From assembly GCA_003567315.1 (NCBI GenBank), contig PWZT01000050.1, positions 1-55,101 of the forward strand: a stretch of DNA of 55,101 nucleotides, read 5' to 3'. Made by a program: the position numbers and the translations under genes. This document shows positions 13,908 through 32,526 of the stretch, piece after piece. Numbering within the stretch: position 1 is the first letter of the stretch; every line of letters starts with the position of its first letter. Below the pieces are notes generated by a model, which saw only the letters and a list, made by a program, of their open reading frames with translations, did no database searches and was not told the DNA's origin. The stretch is from Paracoccaceae bacterium. Lineage in GTDB: Bacteria > Pseudomonadota > Alphaproteobacteria > Rhodobacterales > Rhodobacteraceae.

Positions 13908-14038
13908 AGGCTGACTTCCGCCCATGCCGAGGCGGGGCAAGCAGCCCTATCCTGAAACATCAATAAATGCGGCGCGATTGTGTTCGTGCCAAAACAGCCC
14001 TGGCTGAACAGGGATCTCTGCCCGAGGGAGGGGACCAG

Positions 14039-15730: not shown

Positions 15731-15779
15731 AACAGCAATCGCAGGGCCAACCCTGCCCAGAGACAAAGGGACGAATGTC

Positions 15780-17057
15780 ATGACAGAGAGGCCAGAGGCA
15801 AAGGGCGGCACATCGCGCCGCGCTTTCCTGCGCACCGCAGGGCTTGCTGCCGGGGGCGCAGTTGTGGGGGCGGGGGCCGCGCGGGCCGTCACGCCCGACC
15901 CGCTGATCACCGAGGTCCAGCCCTGGGCGATGTTTCTGGGCGAAGGGGTCGATGCGACGCCTTACGGCATGCCGATCCATTTCGAGGACCATGTCGTGCG
16001 CCGCAATGTGGAATGGCTGACGGCCGATCCGGTCGCCTCGATCAACTTCACCCCGATCCATGCGCTGGATGGCACCATCACGCCCCAAGGCTGCGCGTTC
16101 GAGCGTCACCATTCCGGTGCGATCGAGTTGAGTAAGGAAGATTACCGGCTGATGATCACCGGACTGGTGGAAAAGCCGCTGGTCTTCACCTTCGGCGATC
16201 TGATGCGGATGCCGCGCATCACCCGCACGGCCTTTTGCGAATGCGCGGCCAATAGCGGCATGGAATGGGGCGGCGCGCAGCTCAATGCAGTGCAGTTCAC
16301 CCATGGCATGATCCACAACATGGAATACACGGGCGTCAGCTTGCGCACGCTGCTCAATGAGGCAGGCGTGAAGCCTGAAGGGACTTGGATATATGTCGAG
16401 GGCGCGGATGCCTCCTCCAACGGCCGCTCGATCCCGATGGAAAAGGCGCTGGATGACTGCATGATCGCCTTCACGGCGAATGGCGAGGCGCTGCGCATGG
16501 AGCATGGCTATCCGGTCCGTCTGGTCGTGCCGGGCTGGGAGGGCAATCTCTGGGTCAAATGGCTGCGCCGCATCGGCGTGCATGACGGCCCGATGGAGAG
16601 CCGCGAGGAAACCAGCAAATACACAGACCTCATGCCCGACGGGCGCGCGCGCAAATGGACCTGGGCGATGCACGCGAAATCGGTCATCACCGCGCCATCG
16701 CCGCAGATGCCGATTGGCCACGGGCCGGGGCCGATGGTGATTTCGGGCCTCGCCTGGTCGGGCCTGGGCAAGATCGCGCGCGTGGACGTCTCGCTCGATG
16801 GCGGGGCCAATTGGCAGACCGCAAGGCTGGCAGGCGAGCCCGGCGACAAGGCGCTGACCCGCTTCTATGTCGATCATCAATGGAATGGCGAGCCGATGTA
16901 TCTGCAATCGCGGGCGATTGACGAGACCGGCTATGTCCAGCCCACCAAGGACCAGCTGCGCGAGTTCCGGGGTGTGAACTCGATCTATCACAACAACGGC
17001 ATCCAGACCTGGTATGTCAATGAGCACGGAGAGGCCGAAAATGTCGAGATTGGGTAA
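15780..17057 (+). CDS. soxC: SoxC sulfane dehydrogenase, molybdenum subunit
   Basis: 425 residues of the sulfite-oxidase fold. A Tat signal (SRRAFLRTAGL) is followed by a molybdopterin domain with RTAFCECAANSG, which carries the molybdenum-ligand cysteine, and by VPGWEGNLWVKWLRRI and a C-terminal dimerisation domain (VDVSLDGGANWQTARL). With SoxD it oxidises the outer sulfur on SoxY by six electrons. The 3' end overlaps the soxD start by 17 nt. Needs molybdate, supplied by the nearby modABC. Confidence 0.96.
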   Translation: MTERPEAKGGTSRRAFLRTAGLAAGGAVVGAGAARAVTPDPLITEVQPWAMFLGEGVDATPYGMPIHFEDHVVRRNVEWLTADPVASINFTPIHALDGTITPQGCAFERHHSGAIELSKEDYRLMITGLVEKPLVFTFGDLMRMPRITRTAFCECAANSGMEWGGAQLNAVQFTHGMIHNMEYTGVSLRTLLNEAGVKPEGTWIYVEGADASSNGRSIPMEKALDDCMIAFTANGEALRMEHGYPVRLVVPGWEGNLWVKWLRRIGVHDGPMESREETSKYTDLMPDGRARKWTWAMHAKSVITAPSPQMPIGHGPGPMVISGLAWSGLGKIARVDVSLDGGANWQTARLAGEPGDKALTRFYVDHQWNGEPMYLQSRAIDETGYVQPTKDQLREFRGVNSIYHNNGIQTWYVNEHGEAENVEIG

Positions 17058-18060
17058 ATTCTGCACCAGCACGGCGCTTGTCGGCATGCTGGCGGTGTCT
17101 CCGGCCCTCGCGGACCCGCTGGCCGAGGCGCTGGGGCTGGGTCGCGCGGCGCTGCCTGAAGAGATTGCGGCTTGGGATGTGGCCGTCATGCCTGACGGGC
17201 GCGGGCTGCCCGAGGGGAGCGGCGACGTCTGGGATGGCGAGGATCTCTGGATCGACCATTGTGCCGCCTGCCATGGCGATTTCGCCGAGGGCGCCGGGGT
17301 CTGGCCGCCCATCGTGGGCGGCGCGGGCTCACTGACAGACGTGCGCCCGCTCAAGACCGTCGAATCCTACTGGCCTTATCTCTCTACAGTCTGGGACTAT
17401 GTGAACCGCTCGATGCCCTTCGGCGCCGCCCAGACGCTCGAGACCGATGAGGTCTATGCCATCACTGCCTATATCCTCTTCTCGGCGGGGCTGGTGGATG
17501 ATGATTTCGAGCTCAATCAGGACAATTTCACTGAAATTCGCCTTCCCAATGAGGACGGCTTCTATATCGATGACCGCGAGGAGGTAGAGTTCCCGGTCTT
17601 CACGCAGGAACCCTGCATGAGCGATTGCCGCGACGAGGTGACGATTGTCGCCCGCGCAACCGATCTTGGCGTGACGCCGGAGTTCCCCGTCATCCGCAAC
17701 CTCTATTCCGACATGCTCTCGCGTGAAGATGAGGTGGAGGAGAGCCAGGAAGATGCCGCTGCCGAGCCCGGGACCGGGCCGGAGGGTGTCGAGTTCGCAT
17801 CGCTCTCGCCAGAGATGCTCGCGGCAGGGGAAAGCGCGTGGCGGCAATGCCGGTCCTGCCATCAGATCGGCGATGGGGCGCGCAATGCCGCCGGGCCGCA
17901 GCTGAATGATATCGTCAATGCAACAGCAGCGCATGTGGATGGCTTCCGCTATTCTCCGGCCTTTGAGGAGGCGCGCGACGATGGTCTGGTCTGGGACGCG
18001 GAAACGCTCGATGCGTTTCTGGAAAACCCTGCCGGGCTTATCCCGCGCAACCGCATGTAG
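17041..18060 (+). CDS. soxD: SoxD diheme cytochrome, truncated by in-frame TAG
   Basis: 339 residues to a TAG at 18058. It has a signal peptide ending at SPALA, a first heme site CAACH, a linker with CMSDCRDE, and a second heme site CRSCH. The second domain ends NRM, probably including the axial Met, and then meets the TAG. The same frame continues for 22 more codons to TGA at 18127, reading FRGVRDPEERAALIAYLKSH, which is exactly the last helix of a class I cytochrome c. So the frame is intact except for one amber codon. It may be a nonsense mutation, a sequencing error, or a readthrough site. Start ATG at 17041 overlaps soxC. SoxD passes SoxC electrons to other cytochromes. Confidence 0.9.
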   Translation: MSRLGKFCTSTALVGMLAVSPALADPLAEALGLGRAALPEEIAAWDVAVMPDGRGLPEGSGDVWDGEDLWIDHCAACHGDFAEGAGVWPPIVGGAGSLTDVRPLKTVESYWPYLSTVWDYVNRSMPFGAAQTLETDEVYAITAYILFSAGLVDDDFELNQDNFTEIRLPNEDGFYIDDREEVEFPVFTQEPCMSDCRDEVTIVARATDLGVTPEFPVIRNLYSDMLSREDEVEESQEDAAAEPGTGPEGVEFASLSPEMLAAGESAWRQCRSCHQIGDGARNAAGPQLNDIVNATAAHVDGFRYSPAFEEARDDGLVWDAETLDAFLENPAGLIPRNRM

Positions 18061-18132
18061 TTCCGTGGGGTACGTGATCCCGAGGAACGCGCGGCATTGA
18101 TCGCTTATCTGAAATCGCATACGAATTGAGGA

Positions 18133-18852
18133 ATGATGACTATCAAGCACCTCTTTCATGCATGTGTGCTGGCCGGTGTTCCCGGGGTGGCACTGACGCA
18201 GGCCATACCCTTGGGCGATCCGGAACATGGCGCGGAACTCTACCAATATGAATGCGCAGCCTGTCACCAGATCGGCGAGGGGGCCGAGCACCGCATCGGC
18301 CCGCACCTGAACCGCATCTTTGATCGTCGCGCAGGCAGTCAGGAGTTCGACGGCTATTCCGAGGCCCTTGCCCGGCAGGGCCGCGACGGGCTGCGCTGGG
18401 ATTTCCTGCGGCTTGATGCCTATATCGCCAATCCGCGCTCGCTGGTTTCGGGCACCAACATGGCCTATCCGGGTCTCGAGGATGCCGAGGAGCGCGCTGA
18501 TCTGATCGCCTTCATCCGTGCCTACTCGGACCGGCCGCAGGACATCCCCGAAGCTGCGCCCACAGCCTTCGCACCCGAGGTGCAGCTTCCTGCAGAGGTG
18601 CTGGAGATCGAGGGCGATGCTGAATACGGTGAATTCTTGAGCGCGTCCTGCACCACCTGCCATCAGCGCAGTGGCGATCATGCGGGGATCCCGGGCATCA
18701 TTGGCTGGCCGGAAGAGGATTTCGTGGTCGCCATGCATGCCTACAAGCAGGAATTACGCCCGCATCAGGTAATGCAGTCGGTCGCGCAACGCCTTGATGA
18801 TGAAGAAATCGCAGCGCTGGCTGCCTATTTCGGGGGGTTGCGACGCGAATAG
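18133..18852 (+). CDS. soxE: Diheme cytochrome c, SoxE-like
   Basis: 239 residues: signal peptide, first heme site CAACHQIG followed by a class I domain with Met in SGTNMAYPG, and a second site CTTCHQR in a C-terminal FccA-like domain (FVVAMHAYKQELRPHQVMQ). This is the layout of SoxE and of the small subunit of flavocytochrome c sulfide dehydrogenase. It would accept electrons from the SoxF flavoprotein encoded 205 nt downstream. Two adjacent ATGs (18133 and 18136) are equally possible starts. It begins just after the end of the extended soxD frame. Confidence 0.88.
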   Translation: MMTIKHLFHACVLAGVPGVALTQAIPLGDPEHGAELYQYECAACHQIGEGAEHRIGPHLNRIFDRRAGSQEFDGYSEALARQGRDGLRWDFLRLDAYIANPRSLVSGTNMAYPGLEDAEERADLIAFIRAYSDRPQDIPEAAPTAFAPEVQLPAEVLEIEGDAEYGEFLSASCTTCHQRSGDHAGIPGIIGWPEEDFVVAMHAYKQELRPHQVMQSVAQRLDDEEIAALAAYFGGLRRE

Positions 18853-18960
18853 GGAAAAGCTCTGTCGATGCGCCGGGCCGTCTGGGATAGCGCATTGATA
18901 TGACACTCTGATCTGGGATGCCGTTTCATGTCAGTTGCGCCATGTGGAACAGCATCATCG

Positions 18961-18996
18961 GTCCAGCAGCTTGCAAGCCTTGCACCTGTGCTGGAC
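18961..18996. repeat. Inverted repeat upstream of soxF
   Basis: GTCCAGCA at 18961-18968 pairs with TGCTGGAC at 18989-18996 across a 20-base spacer, inside the 205-base soxE-soxF gap. No T run follows, so it is not a simple terminator. It may be an RNA stem or an operator. Confidence 0.35.
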
Positions 18997-19057
18997 AACT
19001 GGGAGGAAGCGCGCGACGAGAGCCTCAGCGACAGGCACCAAAGGGAGAGAAGCCACT

Positions 19058-20320
19058 ATGAGACTAAACAGACGCAGATTTCTCGGCACGGCCACCGCTG
19101 CAACAGCGGCCTTGTCGGCCCCCGCCGTGTTGGGCAACGCGCGCCCGCGCGTGGTCGTGATCGGCGGTGGCTCGGGCGGCGGCACGGCCGCGCGCTACCT
19201 CGCCAGCGACAGCAACGGTGCGCTCGATGTGACGCTGATCGAACCATCGCGGATGTATTACACCTGCTATTTCTCGAACCTCTATCTCGGAGGCTTCTGG
19301 GAGTTCGAGGATCTGGGCCATGACTATGGCAACATGGCGATGCGCGGCGTGAACATCATCCATGACTGGGCGATGGCTGTGGACCGTGATGCGCAGACAG
19401 TCTCGCTGGGCGGTGGCGGCGCTGTGTCCTATGACCGGCTTGTCGTGTCGCCGGGGATCGATTTCGTGGATGGTGCCGTGCCCGGCTGGGATGTGAGCCA
19501 GCAGAGCAAGATGCCCCATGCCTACAAGTCCGGTACGCAGGCGCAGTTGCTGAAAGCACAGGTGGAGAACATGCGCGAGGGCGGCACCTATGCGATGGTC
19601 GCGCCGCCGAACCCCTATCGCTGCCCGCCCGGACCCTATGAGCGCATTTCGATGGTCGCGCATATCCTGTCGGAGCGAAACCCGACGGCGAAGATTCTGA
19701 TCGTGGATCCCAAGGCGAATTTCTCGAAGCAGGGTCTCTTCGAGGAAGGCTGGAACCGGCACTACCCTGGCATGATCGAACGTATCGGCCCTGATTTCGG
19801 CGGCGACAATGTCGAAGTGCGCCCCGATGACATGGAAGTGGTTATCGATGGCATGGTCGAAAGCGTCGATGTCTGCAACGTCATCCCCGCGCAGAAAGCG
19901 GGCAAGATCGCTGAGCTGGCCGGACTGACCAATGATGCAGGCTGGGCGCCGGTCAAGCCCGAAGACATGCGCTCGCGGATGGATGACAATGTCTTCGTCC
20001 TCGGCGATGCCAGCCAGCAGGGTGCGATGCCGAAATCGGGCTATTCGGCCAATAGCCAGGCCAAGGTGGTTGCCAATGTCATTCGCGGCGAATTGACCGA
20101 CAGCCGCATCTTCCCGGCGCGCTACGCGAACGCTTGCTGGTCGCTGATCGCAACCAATGACGGCGTGAAGGTCGGCGCGAGTTATGAGCCCGGCGAGGAC
20201 GAGATTGAGTCAGTGTCGAGCTTCATCAGCCAGACGGGCGAGGATGCCGAACTGCGCCGCCAGACTTTTGAGGAAAGCATCGGCTGGTATAACGGTATCG
20301 TGGACGACATCTTCGGGTGA
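19058..20320 (+). CDS. soxF: SoxF flavoprotein (FccB-like sulfide dehydrogenase)
   Basis: 420 residues. A Tat signal (NRRRFLGTATA) precedes a Rossmann FAD site VVVIGGGSGGGTAARYL. Cys70 in MYYTCYFSNLYLGG matches the cysteine that binds FAD covalently in FccB. Cys189 in NPYRCPPGP and Cys360 in YANACWSLI match the redox-active pair. The C-terminus has FVLGDASQQGAMPKSGYSAN. It oxidises sulfide (or thiols bound to Sox proteins) in the periplasm and passes electrons to the SoxE-like cytochrome. The ATG at 19058 is chosen for the Tat motif and the AAGGGAGAG site upstream. A strong terminator follows. Confidence 0.93.
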   Translation: MRLNRRRFLGTATAATAALSAPAVLGNARPRVVVIGGGSGGGTAARYLASDSNGALDVTLIEPSRMYYTCYFSNLYLGGFWEFEDLGHDYGNMAMRGVNIIHDWAMAVDRDAQTVSLGGGGAVSYDRLVVSPGIDFVDGAVPGWDVSQQSKMPHAYKSGTQAQLLKAQVENMREGGTYAMVAPPNPYRCPPGPYERISMVAHILSERNPTAKILIVDPKANFSKQGLFEEGWNRHYPGMIERIGPDFGGDNVEVRPDDMEVVIDGMVESVDVCNVIPAQKAGKIAELAGLTNDAGWAPVKPEDMRSRMDDNVFVLGDASQQGAMPKSGYSANSQAKVVANVIRGELTDSRIFPARYANACWSLIATNDGVKVGASYEPGEDEIESVSSFISQTGEDAELRRQTFEESIGWYNGIVDDIFG

Positions 20321-20527: not shown

Positions 20528-22317
20528 ATGACCAGTTTCACGACACGCCCCGAAATCATGGGCAGTTTCGGCGTGGTGTCTTCCACACATTGGATCGCCT
20601 CAAGCGTGGGTATGGCGATACTGGAGCGCGGTGGCAACGCGTTTGATGCGGCTGTCGCGGCGGGGCTGGTGCTGCAAGTCGTGGAGCCGCATCTGAACGG
20701 GCCGGGCGGCGAGTTGCCTGCGATCCTGTGGCAGGCCGAAGCGCGGCGCGCTGATGTCCTTTGCGCGCAGGGCCCCGCGCCTGCCGGGGCAACGATCGCG
20801 CATTACCGCGCGCAGGGCTTGCGCCATGTCCCGGGTGATGGACTGCTGGCCACGGTGATCCCGGGCGCATGGGATGGCTGGATGCTGATGCTGCGCGATT
20901 ATGGGCGTCTGCCGCTCCGCGACGTTCTCGAGCCTGCGATCCATTACGCCAGCGCGGGCCATCCCTGCCTGTCGCGCGTTGCGGACACGATCGGGGGGCT
21001 CGCTGCGTTCTTCCGCGAGACTTGGCCGAGTTCCCATGAGACATGGGTGCCGCGCGGGAATGTACCTGTTGCAGGCCAATTGCTGCGCAACCCAGACCTT
21101 GCGCATACCTATACCCGCATCCTGTCAGAGGCAGAATGCCACAAGACCCGCGATGCGCAGATCGACGCTGCGCGTGATGCCTTCTATCGTGGCTTTGTTG
21201 CCGAAGAGATTGGAGCCTGGCTCGCCCGCAGTGAATTGCCCGACAGCAATGGCCGAAACCAGCGCGCTGTGCTGACCGCCGAAGATCTCGCGGGCTATCG
21301 GGCCACCATCGAACCCCCAGTGTGGGACGAATTCGGCGACTGGCGTATCGCGAAATGCGGGGCCTGGGGACCCAGGGGCCCGTCCTATTGCAGTCGCTGG
21401 CATTGTTGCGCGGGATGGATTTGCACAGTCTGGACCCGCTTGGTGCGGACTTCATCCATCTGGTAACGGAGGCTATGAAACTGGCATATGCCGACCGCGA
21501 AATCTACCTTGCCGACCCAGCATTCACCGATGTCCCGCTGCAAATGCTCTTCTCGGAAGACTATGCCCGGACGCGTCGAAAGCTCATCGGTGCGGAGGCC
21601 AACCTCGATCTGAACGCTGGCATTCTGCCGGGGTATGAGGCGCAGCACAGCGCCATGATGAACGCATTGTCGCGGCTGAGCAGTACTGATGGTGCCGTCT
21701 ATGAGCCCACCATGGCCCATCTCGCGCGCAAACGCGGCGACACGGTTCATCTCGATGTCATAGATGCCGAAGGCAATATGGTTTCGGCCACACCATCTGG
21801 TGGCTGGCTGCAAAGCTCACCCACGATTCCGGGGCTGGGTTTTTGCCTCAACACCCGCGCGCAGATGTTCTGGCTCGAAGAGGGCCTGCCCGGATCGCTT
21901 GCGCCGGGCAAACGCCCGCGCACGACGCTTTCGCCCAGCCTTGCGCTCAATGGCGACGGGCGTCGCATGGTGTTTGGAACGCCGGGCGGCGACCAACAGG
22001 ATCAGTGGCAGTTGCTTTTCTTCCTCTACACGGCCTGTTTCGGAATGGGGTTGCAGGAGGCGCTCGATGCGCCGCTATTTCACAGCACGCATTTCCCGGC
22101 GAGCTTCTATCCGCGATCGTGCAGCCCGGGCCAGATCATGGTCGAGGAAAGCTATGGCCCGACTGTCATCGCCGAGCTGCGCGCGCGCGGCCATGATGTG
22201 CAGACATCGCCGCCGATGAGCATCGGGCGGCTGACCGCAGCAACGCGCGACGGCGCCGGGATGTTGCGCGCGGGTGCGTCGCCGCGTTTGATGCAAGCCT
22301 ATGCTGTCGGACGATAG
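20528..22317 (+). pseudogene. Gamma-glutamyltransferase family gene with a frameshift
   Basis: Two overlapping frames together encode one protein. The first (from ATG 20528, AAGGAG site) runs from STHWIASSVGMAILERGGNAFDA through GYRATIEPPVWDEFGDWRIAKCGAW; the motif WIASSVGMAILERGGNAFDA is given for orientation. The second continues TQGPVLLQSLALLRG, then GDTVHLDVIDAEGNMVSATPS, where Thr at 21742-21744 is the autoprocessing nucleophile. The switch lies in the GGGG at 21366-21369: one missing base would restore AW-G-TQGPV. The protein lacks a signal peptide, as in YwrD-type cytoplasmic members. Either inactivated or a sequencing error. It is adjacent to, and convergent with, the peptide ABC transporter. 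Confidence 0.85.
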
Positions 22318-22374: not shown

Positions 22375-24660
22375 TTATTCGGGATAGAGAACGCAGGCGA
22401 CCTCGTGCCCTTCGGCGATCTTGCGCCGCCGCGGCGAGGAGTGCGGCGCGAATTTCAAGACCAGTGCGCCTCTATCTTCGGAAATCTCCGCCGCCTCGGC
22501 CAGCGAGGCCGGGCGCGCGGCCATCACCTCGGCCAGTTGCGCCCGCGCCGCCGCCACGCCCTTGGGCGCCGGGATGCGCAGGTCCAGCCCGTCGCGCTCG
22601 GGCTCCCCAAGCGCATCGCGCGGCTTCTCCAGCAAATCCCATTCCGCCAGCGCTGCAATCACGTCGCGCCCTTCCCAGCCGCAATGCACTGTCGCCAGCG
22701 GGCAGCGGTTGTGGAAGCGGCAGCCATTGGGCAGGTCCACCGCCGAGGGGATCTCGCCCGCCGATTCCAGCGGCGGTTTCTCAACGCTGGGGTCGGGCTC
22801 GGGCGAGGCATCGAGCAGCAGTTGCGTATAGGGGTGCTTGCGCTCGGCGATGACCTTTTCCGTGGGGCCGACCTCGACAATCTCGCCCAGATACATGATC
22901 GCCGTGCGGTCGGCGACATAGCGGATCGTCGGCAGGTCATGGCTGACATAGACGAAGGAAATCCCCATCTCGTCGCGGAAATGGCGCATCAGGTTCAGCA
23001 CACCCGCGCGGATCGAAACATCGAGCATCGAGACCGGCTCATCCGCCACGATGAAGCGCGGCTCGAGCACGATGGCGCGCGCGATGGCGACGCGCTGGCG
23101 CTGCCCGCCCGACAGCTCATGCGGGAAGCGTTCCATATAGGTCGCCGCCGGTTTCAGCCCCGCGCGTTCCAGCGCCTGCACGACGCGGGCGCGCTTGTCC
23201 TTGCCACGGGCAAGGCCGTGGATGGTCAGCGGCTCGCCCACGATATCCTGAATGGTGAAGCGCGGGTTGAGAGTCTGATAGGGGTCCTGGAACATCATCT
23301 GCGCGCGACGCCGGAATGCCTTCAGCTCACCCTTCTTCAGATGCGCGATGTCTGCGCCCTCGGACAGGATGCGCCCGTCGGTGGGCTCCTGCAGCCGCAC
23401 CAGCATCTCGCCCGTGGTGGTCTTGCCCGAGCCCGACTCGCCAGCGAGCCCCAGAATTTCGCCCGCCTGAAGGTCCAGATCGATCCCGTCCACTGCGTGC
23501 ACCTTGGCGTCCGAGCGCCCGAAGAATCCGCCGGCGATGGGGAAATGCTTGACTAAGCCCTCGACCTTAAGCACCTCGTCGCTTTCTTTGCGCGTGCGCA
23601 GCGGGGTGGTCACGAGTTCTTCGTTCAAGCGTCTCCCGACCTCAATCCAGGCGTCGTTCGTGGCGGCCACGCGGCGGAACTCTTCCACCTTGTCGGGGTA
23701 GTGGCAGGCGGCGAAGCGGCCGTCGCCCACCGGATGCTGCGCGGGTTCATCGGCGCGGCAGCGGTCGGTGGCAAAAGGGCAGCGTTCGGCGAAGCGGCAG
23801 CCCGCAGGCGGGTTCAGCAGGTTGGGCGGCGTGCCGGGGATGGAAATCAGCTCGCGCTGCGCGCCCTCCAGCGTGGGGAAGGCATTGGTCAGGCCCATGG
23901 TGTAGGGGTGGAAGGGCGCCCCAAAAACCTGGCGCACCGGACCCGTCTCCATGATCTTGCCGCCATACATCACCGCCACCCGGTCGCAGGTCTGCACCAC
24001 GACCGAGATATCATGCGTGATGAACATCAGCGCCATGCCGCGTTCGCGCCGCAGCCGGGCGAGGCGCGAGAGGATCTGCGCCTGCGTCACCACATCGAGC
24101 GCGGTCGTCGGCTCATCCGCGATCAGAAGCTGCGGCTGCAGCGCCATCGCCATGGCGATCACCGCGCGCTGCTTCATGCCGCCCGACATCTCGTGCGGAT
24201 AGGCGCGCAGGCGCGACGGATCGAGGCCCACGGCGCGGAACAGATCCTCGGCCTGCGCCCAGCCCTCGGCCTTGTCGATCTGGATATGCGCCTGCATCGC
24301 CTCGAGGATCTGGTCGCCAACGCGATAAACCGGGTCGAGCGCGTTCATGGCGGCCTGGCTGATCCAGGCGATCTCTTTCCAGCGCACGCGGCGCATGGCC
24401 TCGCCGGTCAGCGGCACCAGATCGCGCCCCGAGAAGTCGATGGCCCCGCGCGGGATTTCGCCATTGGGCGGCAAGAGCTTCAGCATCGCTTTGGCGGCGG
24501 TGGTCTTGCCGCAGCCGCTCTCGCCTACCAGCCCCAGCGCCTCGCCCGGGGCGATGGTGAAATCGATCCCGTCCACGGCCTGCACCGGCCCTGCGCCGGT
24601 GCGGTAATGGATTGCCAGATCGCGCACATCCAGCAGTGTCTGCGTTGCCATATCCTTCAT
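22375..24660 (-). CDS. Oligopeptide ABC transporter, fused double ATPase
   Basis: 761 residues holding two complete ATPase domains that are separate proteins (DppD and DppF) in many systems. Domain 1 has GESGCGKTT, MSGGMKQRAVIAMA and LLIADEPTTALD, and ends with the oligopeptide-type cysteine pattern CRFAERCPFATDRC. Domain 2 has GESGSGKTT, LSGGQRQRVAIARA, FIVADEPVSMLD and CRFHNRCPLATVHC. It drives import through the two permeases upstream. The ATG at 24660 overlaps the permease stop as ATGA. Similar fusions exist (GsiA, YejF types). Last gene of the operon; the 20-bp hairpin follows its stop. Confidence 0.93.
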   Translation of the reverse strand: MKDMATQTLLDVRDLAIHYRTGAGPVQAVDGIDFTIAPGEALGLVGESGCGKTTAAKAMLKLLPPNGEIPRGAIDFSGRDLVPLTGEAMRRVRWKEIAWISQAAMNALDPVYRVGDQILEAMQAHIQIDKAEGWAQAEDLFRAVGLDPSRLRAYPHEMSGGMKQRAVIAMAMALQPQLLIADEPTTALDVVTQAQILSRLARLRRERGMALMFITHDISVVVQTCDRVAVMYGGKIMETGPVRQVFGAPFHPYTMGLTNAFPTLEGAQRELISIPGTPPNLLNPPAGCRFAERCPFATDRCRADEPAQHPVGDGRFAACHYPDKVEEFRRVAATNDAWIEVGRRLNEELVTTPLRTRKESDEVLKVEGLVKHFPIAGGFFGRSDAKVHAVDGIDLDLQAGEILGLAGESGSGKTTTGEMLVRLQEPTDGRILSEGADIAHLKKGELKAFRRRAQMMFQDPYQTLNPRFTIQDIVGEPLTIHGLARGKDKRARVVQALERAGLKPAATYMERFPHELSGGQRQRVAIARAIVLEPRFIVADEPVSMLDVSIRAGVLNLMRHFRDEMGISFVYVSHDLPTIRYVADRTAIMYLGEIVEVGPTEKVIAERKHPYTQLLLDASPEPDPSVEKPPLESAGEIPSAVDLPNGCRFHNRCPLATVHCGWEGRDVIAALAEWDLLEKPRDALGEPERDGLDLRIPAPKGVAAARAQLAEVMAARPASLAEAAEISEDRGALVLKFAPHSSPRRRKIAEGHEVACVLYPE

Positions 24661-26378
24661 TGCCGTGCCCTCAGCCGTGGGTTGGCGACCACTTCCAGCG
24701 ACCGCGAGATGAAGAAGACCGACAGCACCGTGGTCATGATCAGAATCCCCGGCGGCAGGTTCCACCACCAGGCCGTCCGCCATGCGCCCGAGAGCCGCGC
24801 GTCATGCAGGATACCACCCCAAGAGATTGCCTGCGGCGGGCCGAGGCCCAGGAAGGACAGCGTCGCCTCGGCGATGATGCTGACACCGACGATGATGGCG
24901 AGTTCCAGAAACACCAGCGGCAGGACGTTGGGGAAGATATGCAGATACATGATCCGCAGGTCCGAGGCGCCGGCCACCCGCGCGGCCTTCACAAACGGCC
25001 GTTCGCGCAAGGACAGCACCTGTGATCGGATCAGCCGCGCCACGGTGCGCCACGTCAGCAGCGAGACCGCCAGAATGACGATGGTCAGCGAGGGCTGGAA
25101 CAGCAGCACGAGGATCAGCGCGAAGGGCTCGAACGGGATGCCATACATCACATCCACTGTGCGCATCAGCACGGTTTCCGTTCGCCCCCGGTAGTAGCCC
25201 GCGATGAGGCCGACATTGGTGCCGATCAGCACCACCAGTGTCGCCCCCAGAAAGCCCACCAGCAGCGCGATCTGGCTGCCATGCACGTTCTGGCTGAAAA
25301 GATCCCGCCCCAGATGGTCGGTGCCGAACCAATGCTCGCGCGAGGGAGGCAAAAGGCGGCTGACGAACCGGTCGGAGCCCAGGGCCAGCATCTCGTCGCC
25401 CACCACCAGCAGCGCGCGCAGATGGCGCTCGCTCTGGGTTGGGACGATCTGCCAGGCGGTGCCGTCCCACTCCATGATCAGCCCGTTGCGTCCGGCGGCG
25501 ATGGCCTGCCCGTCATCGCCGATCCAGCCCGCGCGCATGGCCCGCGTATCGGGGGCGTCGTCGGCACTCCAGCCGCCATCGGCATCCTCGCGGCGCAAGA
25601 GCGTGCCGCGCTCGCCCACCACCAACGCCGCGCCGCCGTCGCTGATGTGGATGTGGTTGAGGTCGCGCGACGAGCCCAGCCGCTCCAGCGTGGCGCTGCC
25701 ATCGTCGGGGTCATAGCGGATCGCCAACCCGCGCTCGCCGACGATCAGCGCGGTACCGCCCACATCCAGCGCGACCGACTGCAGCGGGAAGCCACGCCCC
25801 ACGGGGCTGTCGATCTCCGTGAACGCGCCCGTATCCGCGTCGAAAAGCCAGATTTCCTCGCCCGTGCCGACCATCAGCGCGCTGGCCTCGTCCAGCCAGA
25901 CCACGCCGCGCAGATGCGCCTCTTCCGGCGCCTCCACTGGCAACCACGCGCCGCCCTCGCGCAGCAGGATCACGCCATCCTCGCCCACGGTCAGCACGCG
26001 CCCCTCGGGCGTGAGCGCAACCGCGTGCAGATCGGCCTCGGTCGGCAGGTCGAGCGCCTCCCAGTCGCCTGCCCCCTCGCGCGCCCAGCCCATGCCGCCG
26101 CGTCCGACGATGATCGACTCACCCCCGTGATGGGCCGCGTCATTCAGCGCCAGCGGGCCCAGGCTTTCGCGCAATTCCCACCCCTCGGCCCCGCGTTGCA
26201 GGACCGACCCATCCTCGATCTCGTTGATATGGCGTGGATCATGGGTAGAGAGCAGCGGCGCAAACAGCGCCATGGCGATGATAACACCCAGAACGCACAG
26301 GCCGATCACGGCCAGCCGGTCCTGCATCATGATGCGCAAGGGGCCGGTCGCGGCGCGGAGGAAGGGCGGTAGCGTCAT
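24657..26378 (-). CDS. Peptide ABC permease (DppC type) with inserted seven-repeat domain
   Basis: 573 residues, about twice the usual 280-300. Residues 21-48 are the first membrane segment and the usual FGTDHLGRDLFSQ block of DppC proteins appears at 351; from there on it is a normal permease (EAA-type AARVAGASDLRIMYLHIFPN). Between them, about residues 55-342 form a non-membrane domain with a repeated VGERG-type turn at 91, 131, 170, 213, 254, 295 and 332, spaced about 41 residues. That pattern suggests a seven-bladed beta-propeller of the YCF48/BNR-like kind. By topology it would face the periplasm. Start overlaps dppB-like stop as ATGA. Confidence 0.92.
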   Translation of the reverse strand: MTLPPFLRAATGPLRIMMQDRLAVIGLCVLGVIIAMALFAPLLSTHDPRHINEIEDGSVLQRGAEGWELRESLGPLALNDAAHHGGESIIVGRGGMGWAREGAGDWEALDLPTEADLHAVALTPEGRVLTVGEDGVILLREGGAWLPVEAPEEAHLRGVVWLDEASALMVGTGEEIWLFDADTGAFTEIDSPVGRGFPLQSVALDVGGTALIVGERGLAIRYDPDDGSATLERLGSSRDLNHIHISDGGAALVVGERGTLLRREDADGGWSADDAPDTRAMRAGWIGDDGQAIAAGRNGLIMEWDGTAWQIVPTQSERHLRALLVVGDEMLALGSDRFVSRLLPPSREHWFGTDHLGRDLFSQNVHGSQIALLVGFLGATLVVLIGTNVGLIAGYYRGRTETVLMRTVDVMYGIPFEPFALILVLLFQPSLTIVILAVSLLTWRTVARLIRSQVLSLRERPFVKAARVAGASDLRIMYLHIFPNVLPLVFLELAIIVGVSIIAEATLSFLGLGPPQAISWGGILHDARLSGAWRTAWWWNLPPGILIMTTVLSVFFISRSLEVVANPRLRARQ

Positions 26379-27352
26379 TGGAAAGTCACCCTTGGGTCAA
26401 GCGTGGTGTAAAGGATATCGACCAGCAGATTCAGCGTGATCACGAAAGCCGCCATGATCAGGAAGGACGCCTGCGCCAGCGGGAAATCCGACGTACGCAC
26501 CGCGTTCAGGATCTCGCGCCCCAGCCCGGGCCAGGAGAACACCACCTCGACCACCACCTGCCCGCCGGCCGCAAGCCCGATGGTCACGGCCAACTGGGTC
26601 ACCACCGGCAAAAGCGCATTGCGCGCGGCGTGCTTGTAGAGGATGTCGCGCTCTTGCAGGCCCTTGGCGCGGGCCATCTCGATGAAATCCTCGCCATAGA
26701 CCTCGAGCATGGTGTTGCGCATGATCAGCAAGGGCGAGCCGAGGTAGTAGAGCGCCACGATGAGCACTGGCAGCGCCGCGTGCCACAGGAAATCCAGCGT
26801 CAGGATCTTGTCCCACCAGCCATCCGCATCATAGGGCAGGGTGCGCATGCCGCTGGTCGGCATGATCGACAGGCCGACGCCGAAGATCAGGATCGCGATC
26901 ATGCCTGTCCAGAACATCGGCGCCGAGCGGAACATCAGCCCGATGAAGATCCCCGTGGTATCCGCCCGCGACCCGCGCCGCCAGGAGAGCCACGCGCCCA
27001 GCGGCACCCCTATCACATAGGCCAGCACGATCGCGGCCAGCATCAGGATCATGGTGTTGGCCAGCCGCTCCCAGACGATATCGGCCACCGGCGCGCGATA
27101 GCTGAAGGAGGTGCCGAATTCGCCCTGCACGGCATTGCCGAGGAACAGCACGTATTGGCGCCAGAGCGGCTCTTCCAGCCCGAACTGGGCGCGAATGGCG
27201 GCGCGCTGCTCGGCGTTCAGCCCTTCGGTGACCAGCGCCGCTGTAGGGTCCGGAAGGCCCATGCGGAACAGGAAGAACAGGATGGTGGCAATGATCCACA
27301 GCGAAAAGATCGCCTGCAATACGCGCTTGAAGAGATAGCCTCGTCGCGACAT
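26375..27352 (-). CDS. Peptide ABC permease (DppB type)
   Basis: 325 residues, normal length, with about six membrane segments. The DppB/OppB landmarks are LFRMGLPDPTAALV near the N-terminus, FGTSFSYRAPV before the second segment, the EAA loop MARAKGLQERDILYKHAARN, and the end LVDILYTTLDPRV. It pairs with the propeller-bearing permease to form the channel. ATG at 27352 is chosen over a GTG at 27358 because GGCGAG is then well spaced. A minus-strand terminator-like hairpin lies between this gene and the binding-protein gene upstream. Confidence 0.94.
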   Translation of the reverse strand: MSRRGYLFKRVLQAIFSLWIIATILFFLFRMGLPDPTAALVTEGLNAEQRAAIRAQFGLEEPLWRQYVLFLGNAVQGEFGTSFSYRAPVADIVWERLANTMILMLAAIVLAYVIGVPLGAWLSWRRGSRADTTGIFIGLMFRSAPMFWTGMIAILIFGVGLSIMPTSGMRTLPYDADGWWDKILTLDFLWHAALPVLIVALYYLGSPLLIMRNTMLEVYGEDFIEMARAKGLQERDILYKHAARNALLPVVTQLAVTIGLAAGGQVVVEVVFSWPGLGREILNAVRTSDFPLAQASFLIMAAFVITLNLLVDILYTTLDPRVTFQ

Positions 27353-27429
27353 TCTCACCTCGCCATCAAGTCAGAACTGCGCCCGTCGAGGCAGCGCGTC
27401 GCCCTGTCTTCATCTTGCCAGTAATACTT

Positions 27430-27481: not shown

Positions 27482-29080
27482 TCAGCGTTGCAGCCGACCG
27501 TCCGCGTCCCAACTGTAGCCTGCGGCCTCAAGCTCGGCGCGGGCCGCCTCCATGTCGAACTCGAAGCGTTCGATGAAGGGCGCGTGCCAGAAGGCGTTGA
27601 CCGGCGCGATGATGGAAGTGCCTACCTCGCCACGGCCATCCAGCAGCACATTCACCATTCGCTCACGATCCATTGCCATGGTCAGCGCACGGCGCACGGC
27701 CACGTCATCGAAGGGTTCGCGGCGCGTGTTGAAGGTCATGTGATAGTAGCCGAAATCCGGCACCGAGACGACTGTCAGATCGTCATTATCCTCGGCCAGC
27801 GGGATCTGCCCCGGCTCCAGCCGCCATGCGGTCATGTCGATCTGGCCGGTTTGCAGGGCAGTGAACACCCCCTCGGCATCGGCGTAGATCACGAACTCCA
27901 CGGCATCGACATTGATCTCATCTGCGTGGAAGTGGTCTTCGAAGGTGGTGATCGACATGAACTCGCCGCGATCATAGCGATCAAACACGAATGGCCCCGA
28001 GCCGACAGTCGGGATTTCGCTTGGGGTCAGTTCGCCGGGGTTCTCGATCCCTTCCCACAGATGCTGCGGCAGGATCGGAATCTGGCTCAGCGTGATCGTG
28101 GCAAAGGGTGCCGACGGTTCGCGCAGGTTGAAGCGCAGGCTCAGATCGCCAGTCTGCTCGACTGAGTCGATGGCCGCCAGATAGCTGTCGAAATAACTGT
28201 AGTCGCTGTTCATGTAGTACTCGAAGGTGAATACCACATCTTCTGCGGTCAGCGGTTCGCCATCATGAAAGGTCATGCCCTCGCGCAACGTCACCTCGAT
28301 GGTCACGTCATCCACCGGCGTCACGTCGGACGCGGCCCACGGCACAGGCTCGACATCGGGCGACAGACGCACCAGGCGGTCATAGTAGAGCCGCATCCAT
28401 TTCCAGCCCCAAACGCTCGTCGAGGCCAGCGGGTTGATATTGTCGGGCTCCTGCGGTCCGCCGATGCGCAGAGTGGCGCGGTCGGTCAGCGGCTCGGCTT
28501 CCATCGGCACCCATTCGGAATAAAGCGCCTCGCCCGCCATCGCGTTCATGTTGGTGAAGGTCGTGCTGTTATAGGCCACCACCTCGTCGCGATTGAAGAG
28601 AACGACCACGGGCGCATCGGGGACATAAAGCTCCTGCATCTCGTGGACGATGGCCTGCCGCGCGTCGATATCGAACTCGGCCCCCTGGGCGTCATAGAGT
28701 TCATCATACTCCGGGTTGGAATAGCCACCCGGGTTGTTTGCGCCAAGATCGGCCTGACGGCTGTCGAGCGTGCCCAGGAAGAACTGCGGGTCCAGCCGGT
28801 CCACGCGGCCCGACCAGCCGAGGATCGTGGCGTCGAAATCCTGCTCGGAATAGAAGCGGTCCAGCAGGGTGCTGAACTCCAGCGGCCGGACCGAGACCTC
28901 CATACCCAACTCGCGCCAGGCATCAGCGATGATGAACGCGCCTTCATAGCGGATCGGGTCATAGGATTCGGTCGTCGTGAATATCTCGACCGGGGCAACA
29001 TGCTCTTGCGCGTTTGTGGGCGCGAGCGCACCCAGCAAGGCCAGAGCCGATGTTCCCGCATACATGATTGTTCGTTTCAC
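27482..29080 (-). CDS. SBP_bac_5-type peptide-binding protein, circularly permuted
   Basis: 532 residues from a GTG at 29080 (GGGGAGA site), with a signal peptide ending near PTNA. The family blocks are all present but in swapped order. Residues 30-193 match what is normally the C-terminal part (FTTTESYDPIRYEGAFIIAD, ILGWSGRVDRLDP, GGYSNPEYDELYD). Residues 202-532 match what is normally the N-terminal and middle part (IGGPQEPDNINPLAS, LREGMTFHDGEPLTAEDVVF, PTVGSGPFVFDRY, VRRALTMAMDRERMV), and the protein stops at AAGYSWDADGRLQR, where normal members run on into the first segment. So the chain is cut and rejoined relative to DppA. It supplies substrate to the permeases. Confidence 0.92.
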   Translation of the reverse strand: MKRTIMYAGTSALALLGALAPTNAQEHVAPVEIFTTTESYDPIRYEGAFIIADAWRELGMEVSVRPLEFSTLLDRFYSEQDFDATILGWSGRVDRLDPQFFLGTLDSRQADLGANNPGGYSNPEYDELYDAQGAEFDIDARQAIVHEMQELYVPDAPVVVLFNRDEVVAYNSTTFTNMNAMAGEALYSEWVPMEAEPLTDRATLRIGGPQEPDNINPLASTSVWGWKWMRLYYDRLVRLSPDVEPVPWAASDVTPVDDVTIEVTLREGMTFHDGEPLTAEDVVFTFEYYMNSDYSYFDSYLAAIDSVEQTGDLSLRFNLREPSAPFATITLSQIPILPQHLWEGIENPGELTPSEIPTVGSGPFVFDRYDRGEFMSITTFEDHFHADEINVDAVEFVIYADAEGVFTALQTGQIDMTAWRLEPGQIPLAEDNDDLTVVSVPDFGYYHMTFNTRREPFDDVAVRRALTMAMDRERMVNVLLDGRGEVGTSIIAPVNAFWHAPFIERFEFDMEAARAELEAAGYSWDADGRLQR

Positions 29081-29439
29081 AAGCGTCTCCCCGTTTTTTT
29101 CTGTCACACAGCATCGCAAGCCCACGCTACATAGCGAGAATGTTATTACGCATGTTCACGAATCTCAACCCATGCCCTGGCCGCGTCAGCAAACTGCACA
29201 TGGTTTCCGACGAGTTGATCCTACGTCATGTCGAAGCGCTGCTTTTGCAGGCACTCACAAAGAAAGGTTTTGAGGCTATCGCCTCGACGTCTTATGCAAA
29301 CGAAGTAAAGAGGAAACGCCATGCGATCTGCTGCGCTTCTCGTGAAAAAGTCGCGCTACAGATCTCCTGAATTATCCCCACGGATAATCCTGTTGCGACT
29401 TCGGTGCGCCGGGCTCTGCGCTGACAGCACCGCTTCAGC
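29081..29439. other. Intergenic region, promoter of the ABC operon
   Basis: About 360 bases between the binding-protein gene and the end of the RND gene, both on the minus strand. No convincing gene; a short plus-strand frame ending near 29370 has no recognisable product. An inverted repeat ATTATCC/GGATAAT lies at 29371-29388 but lacks a T run. The promoter of the ABC operon should be within 29081-29250. Confidence 0.4.
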
Positions 29440-32400
29440 TCAAATAGCCGCCGCACCGCCCTTGTCATCGCGCGCGAAATCGACTTCGGCATCAGGCTTC
29501 GCCCGCACCGGGTCCGCGATCAGCGTGTAGACAGCGGGCACGACGAACAAGGTAAAGATCGTGCCGATGAAAAGCCCCGAGAAGATCACGATCCCCATGG
29601 ATTGCCGCGCGGCAGCCCCGGCGCCGCTGGAGATGATGAGAGGCACCACTGCAAGGGCAAGCGACACGGCGGTCATAAGGATCGGGCGCAGGCGCTGGCG
29701 GGCGGAGCGTAGCATTGCGTCCTGAATGCCGAGCCCCTGATCGCGGGCCTGATTGGCGAATTCCACCAGCAGAATCCCGTGTTTCGCGATGATCCCGATC
29801 AGCGCGATCAGCCCGACTTGCGTGTAGATGTTCAGCGTGGCGAGCCCGAGATTGAGCGGCAGCAGCGCACCGAACATGGTCAGCGGCACGGCGACGAGGA
29901 TGATCAGCGGGTCGCGGAAACTCTCGTAATTCGCGGCAAGCACCAGATAGATCACGGCGAGCGCAGCCGCGAAGGCTATCAGCACGGTCGCGCCCTCGCT
30001 TACCTCCAGCCGCGACTGATCCGCGTAGTCGATGAAGAAATCACCTGGCATGGTGCGCTCTGCGATCTCGGTGATCGTCTCAATTCCCGCGCCAGTGGTG
30101 GTGCCGGGAATGGGCAGCGCCTGGATGGTGGCCGAGTTGAGCTGGTCGAACTGCTCGATGGCCGAGGGCGCGGCTTCGGTGCGCGTCTCCAGCAGCGCCG
30201 AGAGTGGCAGCATCTGGCCGTTCATCGAGCGGATGAAGAACTCGCCCAGCCGCTCGGGCGTGTCGCGGAACTCGGGCGCGACCTGCGCGATCACGTCATA
30301 GCTGCGCCCGTCGCGGTCGAACTGGCCGACCGGGCCATCGCCCACCAGCAGCGAAAGCGTATCGCCCACTTCGCGCGCGGAGACATTCAGCGCCGCCGCC
30401 CGCTCGCGGTCGATGCTGACGCGGGTTTGCGGCGTGTCGAAATCGAGCGAGTTGCTGACCACGATGAATTGCCCCGTAGCCTCGGCCTCGGCGGTGATGT
30501 CCTCGGCCACCTGATAGATGTCGGCCACATCGGCGGTGGACCGGATGACGATGGAAATCGGCAGCCCGCCGCCCGCGCCCGGCAGGGTCGGGGGCGCGAA
30601 GACCTGCGCCTGAAGCCCGTCCACGCTGGCCAGCCGCCCGGTGATCTCGGCCTGAATATCGGACTGCGCGCGGTCGCGCTCCCCCCACTCATCCAGCGCC
30701 CAGACGGAAAACCCGCTATTCGTCGCCCCACCGAACCCGATGATGTAGAATTGCGAGTCCACGCCCTCGATGCCCCGCGTCGCCTCGGAGGCTTGCTCGG
30801 CGTAGCGCGCGGTGTGCGCGCTTGTGGCATAGCTGGGCGCGTTCAGAATGGCGAAAAGCCCGCCCTGATCTTCTTCCGGGGCAAGTTCGCTGGGGGTGTT
30901 GAGGAACATGAAAACCGACAGCCCGGTCAGCACCACGACCACCAGCCCGGTCACCGGACGATAGGCGAGCGAGCGTTCCAGAAGCCGCGCATAGCCGTTC
31001 GACAGCCGTGTGAGGTTACGGTCGGCGAAGCGCTGAAGCCAGCTGGATTTTTCGGCGGTCAGCAGCCGGGCCGCCAGCATCGGCGTGATCGTCAGCGCCA
31101 CCACGGTCGAAATGATCACCGCGCCCGCCAGAGTCAGCGCAAACTCGGTGAACAACTGCCCGACCAGCCCGCCGGTAAAGGCGATGGGCGCGAGCACGGC
31201 GACCAGCGCGAGCGAGGTGGCGATCAGCGCCACCCAGATCTCGCGCATCCCCAGAATGGCCGCGCCCATGGGCTTCATGCCTTCGTCTATGTTGCGCTGG
31301 ACGTTTTCGACCACGACAATGGCATCGTCCACCACCAGACCGATGGCCAGCACCATGGCCAGCAGTGTCAGCAGGTTGATCGAGAACCCCGCCATCCACA
31401 TGAAGAAACAGATCCCCACCAGCGACAGCGGGATGGTGATGACCGGCATGATGACCGAGCGCGGCGCACCCAGAAACAGCAGGATGACCAGCACCACCAC
31501 GACCACGGCCTGCAGGATGGTGATGAACACTTCCTGAATCGAGGCGGCGATGGCATCGGTCGCGTCATAGCTGACCTCCACACTCATGCCTTCGGGCAGG
31601 GAGGCTTCGATTTCGGGCAGCGCGTCGTTCACGGCCTGTGAAGTCGTCAGCGGGTTGGCACCGGGCGCAGGATAAATCCCGACAAACAAGCCTTCTTCGC
31701 CATCGACCGACACGATTGTATCGAAGCTCGCCGCATCCAGCTCCACCTCGGCGACATCGCTAAGGCGCACCACCTGATCGCCGTCCATCCGCAACGGCAG
31801 GTCGGCGACTTCCTCGGGGGTTTGCAGTGTGGATTCGAGCAGGATGGACGAGCGCACATCAGAGGTCTCCAGCGTGCCCGGCGCAGAGAGGAAGTTGGAG
31901 GCATTGATCGCCTGCGCCATCTCATTGGCGGTCACCCCCCGGCTCGCCAGCCGGATCGGGTCGATCCAGATGCGCATGGCGAACCGCGCCGCGCCCAGGA
32001 TTTCCGCCTCGCCCACGCCGTCGATGGTGGACATGACCGGCTCGATCACTTGCTCCAGATATTCTGTGAGCTGCGTCGCGCTCATCTGCGGGTTCTGAAA
32101 GACCAGAAACATCGTGGCGAATTCCTGCCCGGTGCCAGTGGTCACTTGCGGATCATTCGCATCCTCGGGCAGATCGTTGCGCACTTCCTGCACCAGCGCC
32201 AGAACCTCTGTCAGCGCGTCATCCGGGTCCGAGCCCAGCACCATGTTCACGCTCACGACACTGCGCGACGGCAGGCTCTCGGACGTGACGTAATCGACAT
32301 TGTCAGCCGTGGCGACGGCTGAGGCGATGGGGTTGGAAACAAATCCCTGCATCAACTCCGCGCTGGCGCCGGGATAAGTGGTGGTGACAGTAACGACTGT

Positions 32401-32526
32401 CTCATCCACCTCCGGAAACTCGCGGATCTGCAGATTGGCGAGACCAGCGATCCCCAGAAGCATGATCAGCGCGCCAAGGACGGTCGAGAGGACAGGGCGG
32501 CGTGTGAAGATTTCAGGAAGGTTCAT
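29440..32526 (-). CDS. RND-family efflux pump, inner-membrane transporter
   Basis: 1028 residues, the full length of AcrB/MexB-type pumps. The N-terminus is MNLPEIFTRRPVLSTVLGAL, with a PGASAELM-like block (TYPGASAELM) and the proton-relay pair in GLVVDDAIVVVENVQRN of the fourth membrane segment. Two large periplasmic loops and the C-terminal TMTAVSLALAVVPL-type repeat (MTAVSLALAVVPLI) are present. It exports drugs, lipophilic compounds or similar. It is translationally coupled to the adaptor (TAATG overlap). No outer-membrane channel gene is adjacent, so a shared TolC-like protein is implied. Substrate unknown. Confidence 0.95.
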   Translation of the reverse strand: MNLPEIFTRRPVLSTVLGALIMLLGIAGLANLQIREFPEVDETVVTVTTTYPGASAELMQGFVSNPIASAVATADNVDYVTSESLPSRSVVSVNMVLGSDPDDALTEVLALVQEVRNDLPEDANDPQVTTGTGQEFATMFLVFQNPQMSATQLTEYLEQVIEPVMSTIDGVGEAEILGAARFAMRIWIDPIRLASRGVTANEMAQAINASNFLSAPGTLETSDVRSSILLESTLQTPEEVADLPLRMDGDQVVRLSDVAEVELDAASFDTIVSVDGEEGLFVGIYPAPGANPLTTSQAVNDALPEIEASLPEGMSVEVSYDATDAIAASIQEVFITILQAVVVVVLVILLFLGAPRSVIMPVITIPLSLVGICFFMWMAGFSINLLTLLAMVLAIGLVVDDAIVVVENVQRNIDEGMKPMGAAILGMREIWVALIATSLALVAVLAPIAFTGGLVGQLFTEFALTLAGAVIISTVVALTITPMLAARLLTAEKSSWLQRFADRNLTRLSNGYARLLERSLAYRPVTGLVVVVLTGLSVFMFLNTPSELAPEEDQGGLFAILNAPSYATSAHTARYAEQASEATRGIEGVDSQFYIIGFGGATNSGFSVWALDEWGERDRAQSDIQAEITGRLASVDGLQAQVFAPPTLPGAGGGLPISIVIRSTADVADIYQVAEDITAEAEATGQFIVVSNSLDFDTPQTRVSIDRERAAALNVSAREVGDTLSLLVGDGPVGQFDRDGRSYDVIAQVAPEFRDTPERLGEFFIRSMNGQMLPLSALLETRTEAAPSAIEQFDQLNSATIQALPIPGTTTGAGIETITEIAERTMPGDFFIDYADQSRLEVSEGATVLIAFAAALAVIYLVLAANYESFRDPLIILVAVPLTMFGALLPLNLGLATLNIYTQVGLIALIGIIAKHGILLVEFANQARDQGLGIQDAMLRSARQRLRPILMTAVSLALAVVPLIISSGAGAAARQSMGIVIFSGLFIGTIFTLFVVPAVYTLIADPVRAKPDAEVDFARDDKGGAAAI

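Follow-up and report, generated by a model that had tools for sequence, protein, structure and literature searches.

A predicted seven-bladed beta-propeller in the periplasmic loop of a DppC-type ABC permease, encoded beside a circularly permuted binding protein

In ATP-binding cassette (ABC) importers of the Dpp type the substrate-binding protein (SBP) docks onto the channel, and substrate release and sealing are aided by a short scoop loop in the periplasm; in the Escherichia coli system the binding protein caps the DppB/DppC pair, the region between transmembrane helices 1 and 2 (TM1 and TM2) of DppC is periplasmic and R383 of DppA is a residue that contacts the ligand carboxylate (PMC12136057). 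YCF48 docks onto the membrane protein D1 by means of an arginine patch consisting of R180, R196, R215, R219, R220 and R237, which binds D1 (PMC10403576). We report the analysis of a stretch of 55,101 nucleotides from a Paracoccaceae bacterium (assembly GCA_003567315.1, contig PWZT01000050.1; hereafter the window), which encodes an Opp/Dpp-class ABC importer with a predicted YCF48-like propeller in the periplasmic TM1-TM2 loop of its DppC-type subunit, together with an SBP that is circularly permuted.

The reading frame of the permease gene is open along its full 573 amino acids (aa), compared with about 300 aa and a short TM1-TM2 loop in an ordinary OppC/DppC protein, and because both its size and this loop exceed the ordinary we call it a variant of the OppC/DppC type. 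Pfam places OppC_N at residues 15-51 (38.6 bits, cut-off 23.9) and BPD_transp_1 at residues 389-570 (76.3 bits, cut-off 26.4), with no further family at E <= 1, and none of the NCBIfam equivalogs exceeded its cut-off, the best being Opp4C (246.7 against 350). The insert, of about 290 residues, occupies approximately residues 52-341: the hydropathy windows for TM1 start at residues 16-29, the break against E. coli DppC falls after TM1, the GTDxxGRD block following the break is intact and the core then aligns through to the end of the E. coli protein. Given that lysine and arginine are biased around TM1 (three in residues 1-21 against one in residues 43-60) and given the topology of E. coli DppC (PMC12136057), the insert is placed in the periplasm. 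A cytoplasmic insert was considered and is ruled out by this topology, that is by the charge bias, the hydropathy and the E. coli comparison. An earlier note on this DNA had described a permease split after its first helix by some 290 residues on the periplasmic side, with the frame kept and both flanking blocks intact, and in all of these respects its description holds.

The same note had listed seven VGERG-type turns, at residues 91, 131, 170, 213, 254, 295 and 332, and had proposed that seven such units form a closed beta-propeller. Seven turns are indeed found at these positions, with gaps of 40, 39, 43, 41, 41 and 37 residues, though VGERG is not kept throughout; they read VGRGG, VGEDG, VGTGE, VGERG, VGERG, AGRNG and ALGSD, and some are degenerate. 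The best off-diagonal self-alignment of the insert scores 180, whereas 60 shuffles average 39.7 (standard deviation 6.5, maximum 59) and the permease core scores 32, which rules out a chance repeat; a lag of 41 is the highest ungapped lag when averaged over 37 aligned sequences. An AlphaFold2 model built on 39 sequences predicts, with high confidence, the closed seven-bladed ring that the note had proposed; the strand pattern is regular, the predicted local distance difference test (pLDDT) score is mostly >90 over residues 61-330 and 79-81 in the end blocks, and the first Foldseek matches are propellers. Blades 1-6 each comprise strands A to D in the model, whereas blade 7 takes its inner pair from residues 322-334 and its outer pair from residues 58-62 and 67-70, so that the ring would be closed by the two ends of the insert. 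The note had missed residues 57-70 as the outer half of blade 7, and the propeller thus extends over the whole insert. We regard the predicted seven-bladed ring as well supported.

Amongst known propellers the nearest family may be that of YCF48. With the insert as query, the first Foldseek matches are the YCF48 entries 2xbg (E 1.2e-10), 5ojr and 8am5, and the corresponding Pfam model, PSII_BNR (PF14870), matches 21 of 37 members at E <= 0.01 (best 2.7e-11), the window copy itself reaching 17.8 bits, under the cut-off of 27. The WD40 model PF00400 matches 4 of the 37 and other propeller models up to 8. In the profile sequence search of the PDB the WD40 protein 5yzv (3.6e-08) ranks above YCF48 5ojp (1.1e-06), in the fold search G-beta and WDR5 come within about one order of magnitude of YCF48, and the designed seven-bladed v22WRAP-T has the top target-normalised template-modelling (TM) score of the 50 Foldseek matches listed (0.79, root mean square deviation (rmsd) 3.3).

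All 39 aligned rows keep seven of the insert's 22 arginines unchanged: R195, R238, R279 and R318, just ahead of the innermost strand in blades 4-7, and, in the B-C turns of blades 4-6, R216, R257 and R297. By the convention for propellers the D-A and B-C loops are both on the top face, and all seven invariant arginines are found in the top-face loops of blades 4-7. Taken over all residue types, invariant positions number 17 of 79 in the top loops and 2 of 55 in the bottom loops (p 0.0045); for the loop counts the outer strands of blades 1 and 5, only two residues long in the model, were widened by hand. The YCF48 sequence contains an arginine in a B-C-type turn, a second at 19 residues on and two more at +4/+5, directly before the next innermost strand; this is the spacing of residues 196, 215, 219 and 220, four places at which the 5ojp chain has E. 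From the spacing and loop position of R196 and R215/219/220, the patches of the insert and of YCF48 share the same loop types, D-A and B-C, the two being equated by loop type and spacing and not by superposed coordinates. Both linkers leave from blade 7 at its B-C end, on the same side of the ring as the invariant arginines.

Because the linkers leave the ring on its arginine face, this face most likely points toward the membrane, the DppB/DppC pair and the SBP docking site. The note had suggested that the insert could touch the binding protein or the peptide, and the invariant arginine cluster on the linker side lends this indirect support. We propose that the propeller may be a built-in docking clamp, or collar, over the periplasmic entrance. 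Its basic arginine face would hold carboxylates of the docked SBP (or of DppB), fixing the SBP over the entrance, and the clamp would seal the cavity, with the released substrate then entering the channel. To such an arginine-faced clamp, built into DppC and contacting SBP or DppB carboxylates, we give not quite an even chance; we infer the orientation of the propeller to the membrane, its partner and its clamp function alike. A further-reaching reading makes the propeller an active part of the transport cycle, in which the arginine face would receive the permuted SBP or its cargo and gate delivery to the channel, in what would then be a separate importer class; this is a possibility, though a doubtful one, and among the open-licence papers listed in the searches no description of a transport-cycle role for a propeller in an ABC importer was found.

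The rearrangement of the SBP is apparent from its match to the family 5 model SBP_bac_5 (PF00496), of which positions 287-361 are found at 28763-28999, ahead of positions 1-286 at 27491-28351. The longer piece scores 232.2 bits (cut-off 32.4) and the shorter 30.8 bits (E 2.4e-7), alone below the cut-off; the swapped order is common to 29 of 29 aligned rows. Compared with E. coli DppA, the SBP profile gives two blocks in swapped order and, when the DppA sequence is doubled, one continuous block in which profile positions 39-522 correspond to DppA 384 round to 368, with the cut between DppA 368 and 384, near R383. Three canonical SBPs of the window's genome (L089, L092 and L093) also give swapped blocks, yet these are not joined by doubling; L090 and L094 gave no match when doubled, probably for choice of the wrong reading frame. 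No collinear match was found among the best 60 of 109 solved family 5 SBPs, the best stretches starting at profile position 191 or later. With a model of the SBP (mean pLDDT 75.8) as query, family 5 SBPs appear at query TM scores of 0.33-0.48 among the 50 Foldseek matches listed, values which a method bound to chain order would give and which are not proof alone. Residue E38 is nearly invariant and, on extending the alignment by one residue past its aligned block, would face DppA R383; ordinary dipeptide binding near R383 would on this comparison of sequences be doubtful.

In the genome searches for the SBP (order and phylum) and for the insert (phylum and the family of Halomonas socia) the first 4 to 11 candidates per genome were scored and the counts are lower bounds. 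Divergent SBPs matching the full permuted profile are held by at least six of 244 genomes of the order besides that of the window; at a stricter limit, the first few candidates per genome in the phylum sample (299 genomes) gave such an SBP in the window's genome alone. A set of sister systems in Rhodobacterales (L103-L108) resembles the window in having a permuted SBP collinear with its own (31-33% identity, 6/6), a DppB and a related DppC (47-49% over the core, 5/5), and differs in that DppC is 287-324 aa long without the insert and the ATPases are encoded by separate genes (5/5). Since these systems pair a permuted SBP with an ordinary-length permease (a neighbouring permease was seen in five of the six), the permutation is probably older than the propeller, and the sister systems are possibly the ancestral form. 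Distances in the insert and in the SBP remain correlated once core distance is accounted for (partial r 0.57 and 0.63, 27 loci), which is suggestive of coevolution between insert and SBP and not decisive.

A number of points weigh against the docking clamp and the kinship with YCF48 on which it draws. Once glycine is set aside, invariant positions number 12 of 68 in top loops and 1 of 35 in bottom loops, a borderline difference (Fisher p 0.056). The YCF48 superpositions are loose (rmsd 7.0-9.1) and WD40 propellers score almost equally in Foldseek; the assignment to YCF48 rather than WD40 is less well supported than the ring. The membrane part of the permease is poorly modelled (pLDDT 36-77 per ten-residue block, mostly <60), for which reason the model does not predict the orientation of the propeller, and linkers of about 10 residues permit orientations other than the one proposed. 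The permuted type of SBP does not require the propeller, as the sister systems lack it. Finally, the two SBP parts correlate more with each other (0.78) than with the insert, and shared ancestry can also yield the insert-SBP correlation.

The features of the window are collected in Table 1. By Pfam, the neighbours of the permease in its operon are a DppB-type permease, the family 5 SBP and oligo_HPY ATPases, and the order SBP, DppB, DppC-propeller and fused DppDF recurs in the gene calls of relatives. The SBP is found in 46 of the 50 relative loci, three of these being cut by a contig end, and the remaining four have <1.1 kb before the permease; DppB is found in 44 loci at 69% or more. In the DppD-DppF fusion, cysteines three and four of the second iron-sulfur motif (701 and 797) have a spacing of 96 residues, the corresponding spacing in E. 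coli DppF being 17 (PMC12136057).

Table 1. Features of the importer locus and the adjoining gene in the window. ORF, open reading frame.
Feature	Positions	Strand	Basis
Convergent gamma-glutamyltransferase (GGT), split across two overlapping ORFs	20528..22317	+	ORFs, neighbour scan
Fused DppD-DppF-type ATPase, ORF of 802 aa; probable start 24660, beside permease stop	22375..24783	-	ORF, Pfam; start judged by eye
OppC/DppC-family permease subunit with inserted propeller, 573 aa	24657..26378	-	ORF call, Pfam; 50 near-full-length relatives
TM1, before the insert, about residues 20-43	26250..26321	-	Hydropathy, OppC_N
Predicted seven-bladed beta-propeller insert, residues 52-341, periplasmic	25356..26225	-	AlphaFold2, Foldseek, PSII_BNR in 21/37 members at E <= 0.01
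N-terminal strands, residues 57-70, completing blade 7 (ring closure)	26169..26210	-	Predicted strands 58-62, 67-70; placed in blade 7 by inference from their order
Blade 1, residues 78-110	26049..26147	-	DSSP of model; outer strand of 2 residues only
Blade 2, residues 117-148	25935..26030	-	DSSP of model
Blade 3, residues 156-188	25815..25913	-	DSSP of model
Blade 4, residues 199-231; invariant R195 before, R216 in B-C turn	25686..25784	-	Model and alignment
Blade 5, residues 240-273; invariant R238 before, R257 in B-C turn; outer strand of 2 residues	25560..25661	-	Model and alignment
Blade 6, residues 281-311; invariant R279 before, R297 in B-C turn	25446..25538	-	Model and alignment
Blade 7 inner strands, residues 322-334; invariant R318 and H319 before	25377..25415	-	Model and alignment
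Permease core, residues 345-573, uninterrupted	24660..25346	-	BPD_transp_1, alignment with E. coli DppC
DppB-type permease subunit, 327 aa, gene preceding the inserted permease	26375..27358	-	ORF, Pfam, relatives
Circularly permuted family 5 SBP, led by its C-terminal part; alignment starts at 29080	27482..29125	-	PF00496, doubled-DppA test

GGT is the sole recurrent family among 10 neighbours scanned; intact copies occur in relatives, where the gene stands beside the system in one of two arrangements, convergent or downstream. Its adjacency, seen in 11 of the 37 loci with room for it, hints at gamma-glutamyl or other anionic substrates and bears on another use of the arginine face, which might itself bind the transported peptide (acidic or anionic), forming alongside the channel a second capture site from which the channel or the SBP would be fed. 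The invariant arginine cluster around blades 4-7 would suit such a site, and YCF48 also binds the D1 tail (PMC10403576); the adjacency, however, is confined to Rhodobacterales (11/16, against 0/21 in others, the taxa having been split by hand), and we consider substrate capture rather unlikely. Elsewhere in the window, ORFs resembling a cluster for sulfur oxidation, Sox (SoxB-like, SoxC-like, cytochrome c and flavocytochrome-like) lie at 13967-20320 on the forward strand and an RND efflux pump-like ORF of 1028 aa lies upstream of the operon at 29440-32526 on the reverse strand; both were named by eye, the former from the translations.

The seed peptides used to find relatives, four from the insert and two from the core, favour inserted forms and would under-count losses. 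This survey of DppC homologues in species genomes gave 54 loci, of which 50 are near-full-length (L016-L065; 61-93% identical), three are core-only and one is a contig-end fragment. Alignments drew on these as follows: A1 with 38 of the 50 loci (L019, L021, L023, L024, L026, L029, L043, L047, L048, L054, L064 and L065 being left out), A3 with 28 of the 46 SBP loci and A4 with 36 of the 50. The carriers are Rhodobacterales, Phyllobacteriaceae, Aliihoeflea, Mesorhizobium, Aquamicrobium, Halomonas and its kin (Halomonadaceae), Natronospirillum, Saccharospirillum, metagenome-assembled genomes (MAGs) of Trueperaceae and single MAGs labelled Alcaligenaceae, Anaerolineales and CSSED10-310. The copy in the last of these (L058) nests among Trueperaceae copies in the tree, possibly through mis-binning.

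The inserted permease is rare in the samples. Strong matches occur in 2 of 198 genomes of the window genome's own family (4 of 198 at E <= 1e-5), the insert is present in at least 10 of 201 genomes of the Halomonas socia family, and the window's genome is the sole strong match among 289 genomes of the class and the sole carrier found among the 299 of the phylum. Weaker matches to the insert, at E <= 1e-5, come from 19 of the 289 class genomes besides that of the window (best 9.8e-17), and also from G064 and G017; when six such loci were inspected, five proved to encode repeat proteins, YCF48-like or WD40-like, that are separate from permeases, and L086 is an open frame of 324 aa. The insert is single-copy in 12 of 12 carrier genomes tested, and in the window's genome the other permease matches start at residue 340 or later, so the inserted permease is present there in one copy. 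The window comes from a draft genome of 102 contigs, in which a chimeric assembly, or a permease fused to an unrelated repeat gene, might be suspected; but the architecture recurs in 50 loci, some of them in named strains and one (L045) on a complete chromosome of Halomonas, and also on a complete Nitratireductor plasmid, on which the gene is annotated merely as an ABC transporter permease subunit. With the single copies these rule out an assembly artefact, and we hold any origin of the architecture by artefact to be scarcely credible.

In the permease-core tree (rooted at the midpoint, the paralogs and two sister rows being flagged for long branches) the 39 inserted rows require one change, with support of 97/96 and in 94% of bootstrap trees, and the inserted clade adjoins five sister permeases without an insert. 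Most simply, the propeller was spliced in frame into the TM1-TM2 loop once and has been kept since. In nine pairs the ratio of nonsynonymous to synonymous divergence (dN/dS) is 0.07-0.35 for the insert against 0.02-0.05 for the core, and the insert is under purifying selection and evolves faster than the core. Its dN exceeds that of the core about five- to twelvefold, as might be seen in a neutral passenger domain tolerated in the loop and having no role, but the low dN/dS and the seven arginines invariant across rows from several phyla make a passenger very improbable.

A role in assembly or stability, without part in the transport cycle, may also be considered, whereby the propeller would aid the folding or cohesion of either the permuted SBP or the pair of DppB and DppC, perhaps in a salty, alkaline periplasm. 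Halomonas and Natronospirillum, both amongst the carriers, are halophile genera, and the insert is acidic overall (52 D/E against 22 R, with no K); it resembles YCF48, which helps photosystem II assembly (PMC10403576). Most members of the same families nevertheless lack the insert, as the counts for the Halomonas socia family and the window's own family indicate, and we judge this role distinctly unlikely.

The component parts of this importer are known; among the open-licence papers listed in the searches, we found no description of a propeller in an ABC permease, of a permuted family 5 SBP or of the combination of the two. A docking-type domain of 290 residues built into a channel subunit, with a rearranged SBP beside it, would, if the docking clamp is correct, provide a handle on SBP docking and the hand-over of cargo, and would extend the YCF48-like use of an arginine patch on a membrane protein beyond photosynthesis. 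The sister systems without a propeller offer a natural before-and-after comparison.

The system shares with E. coli DppABCDF its permease pair, a family 5 SBP and ATPase halves that carry four-cysteine iron-sulfur motifs, and departs from it in the approximately 290 additional periplasmic residues of DppC, the permuted SBP and the fused ATPases (PMC12136057). With YCF48 the insert has in common the seven-bladed fold (predicted for the insert), an arginine cluster in D-A and B-C loops and, for 21 of 37 members, weak similarity in sequence (PMC10403576); YCF48, however, is a separate protein, whereas the propeller here is an internal domain of a permease. TpMglB-2, the binding protein of an ABC system in Treponema pallidum, is likewise circularly permuted by nature, though it binds glucose and belongs to SBP cluster B rather than to family 5 (PMC4990184).

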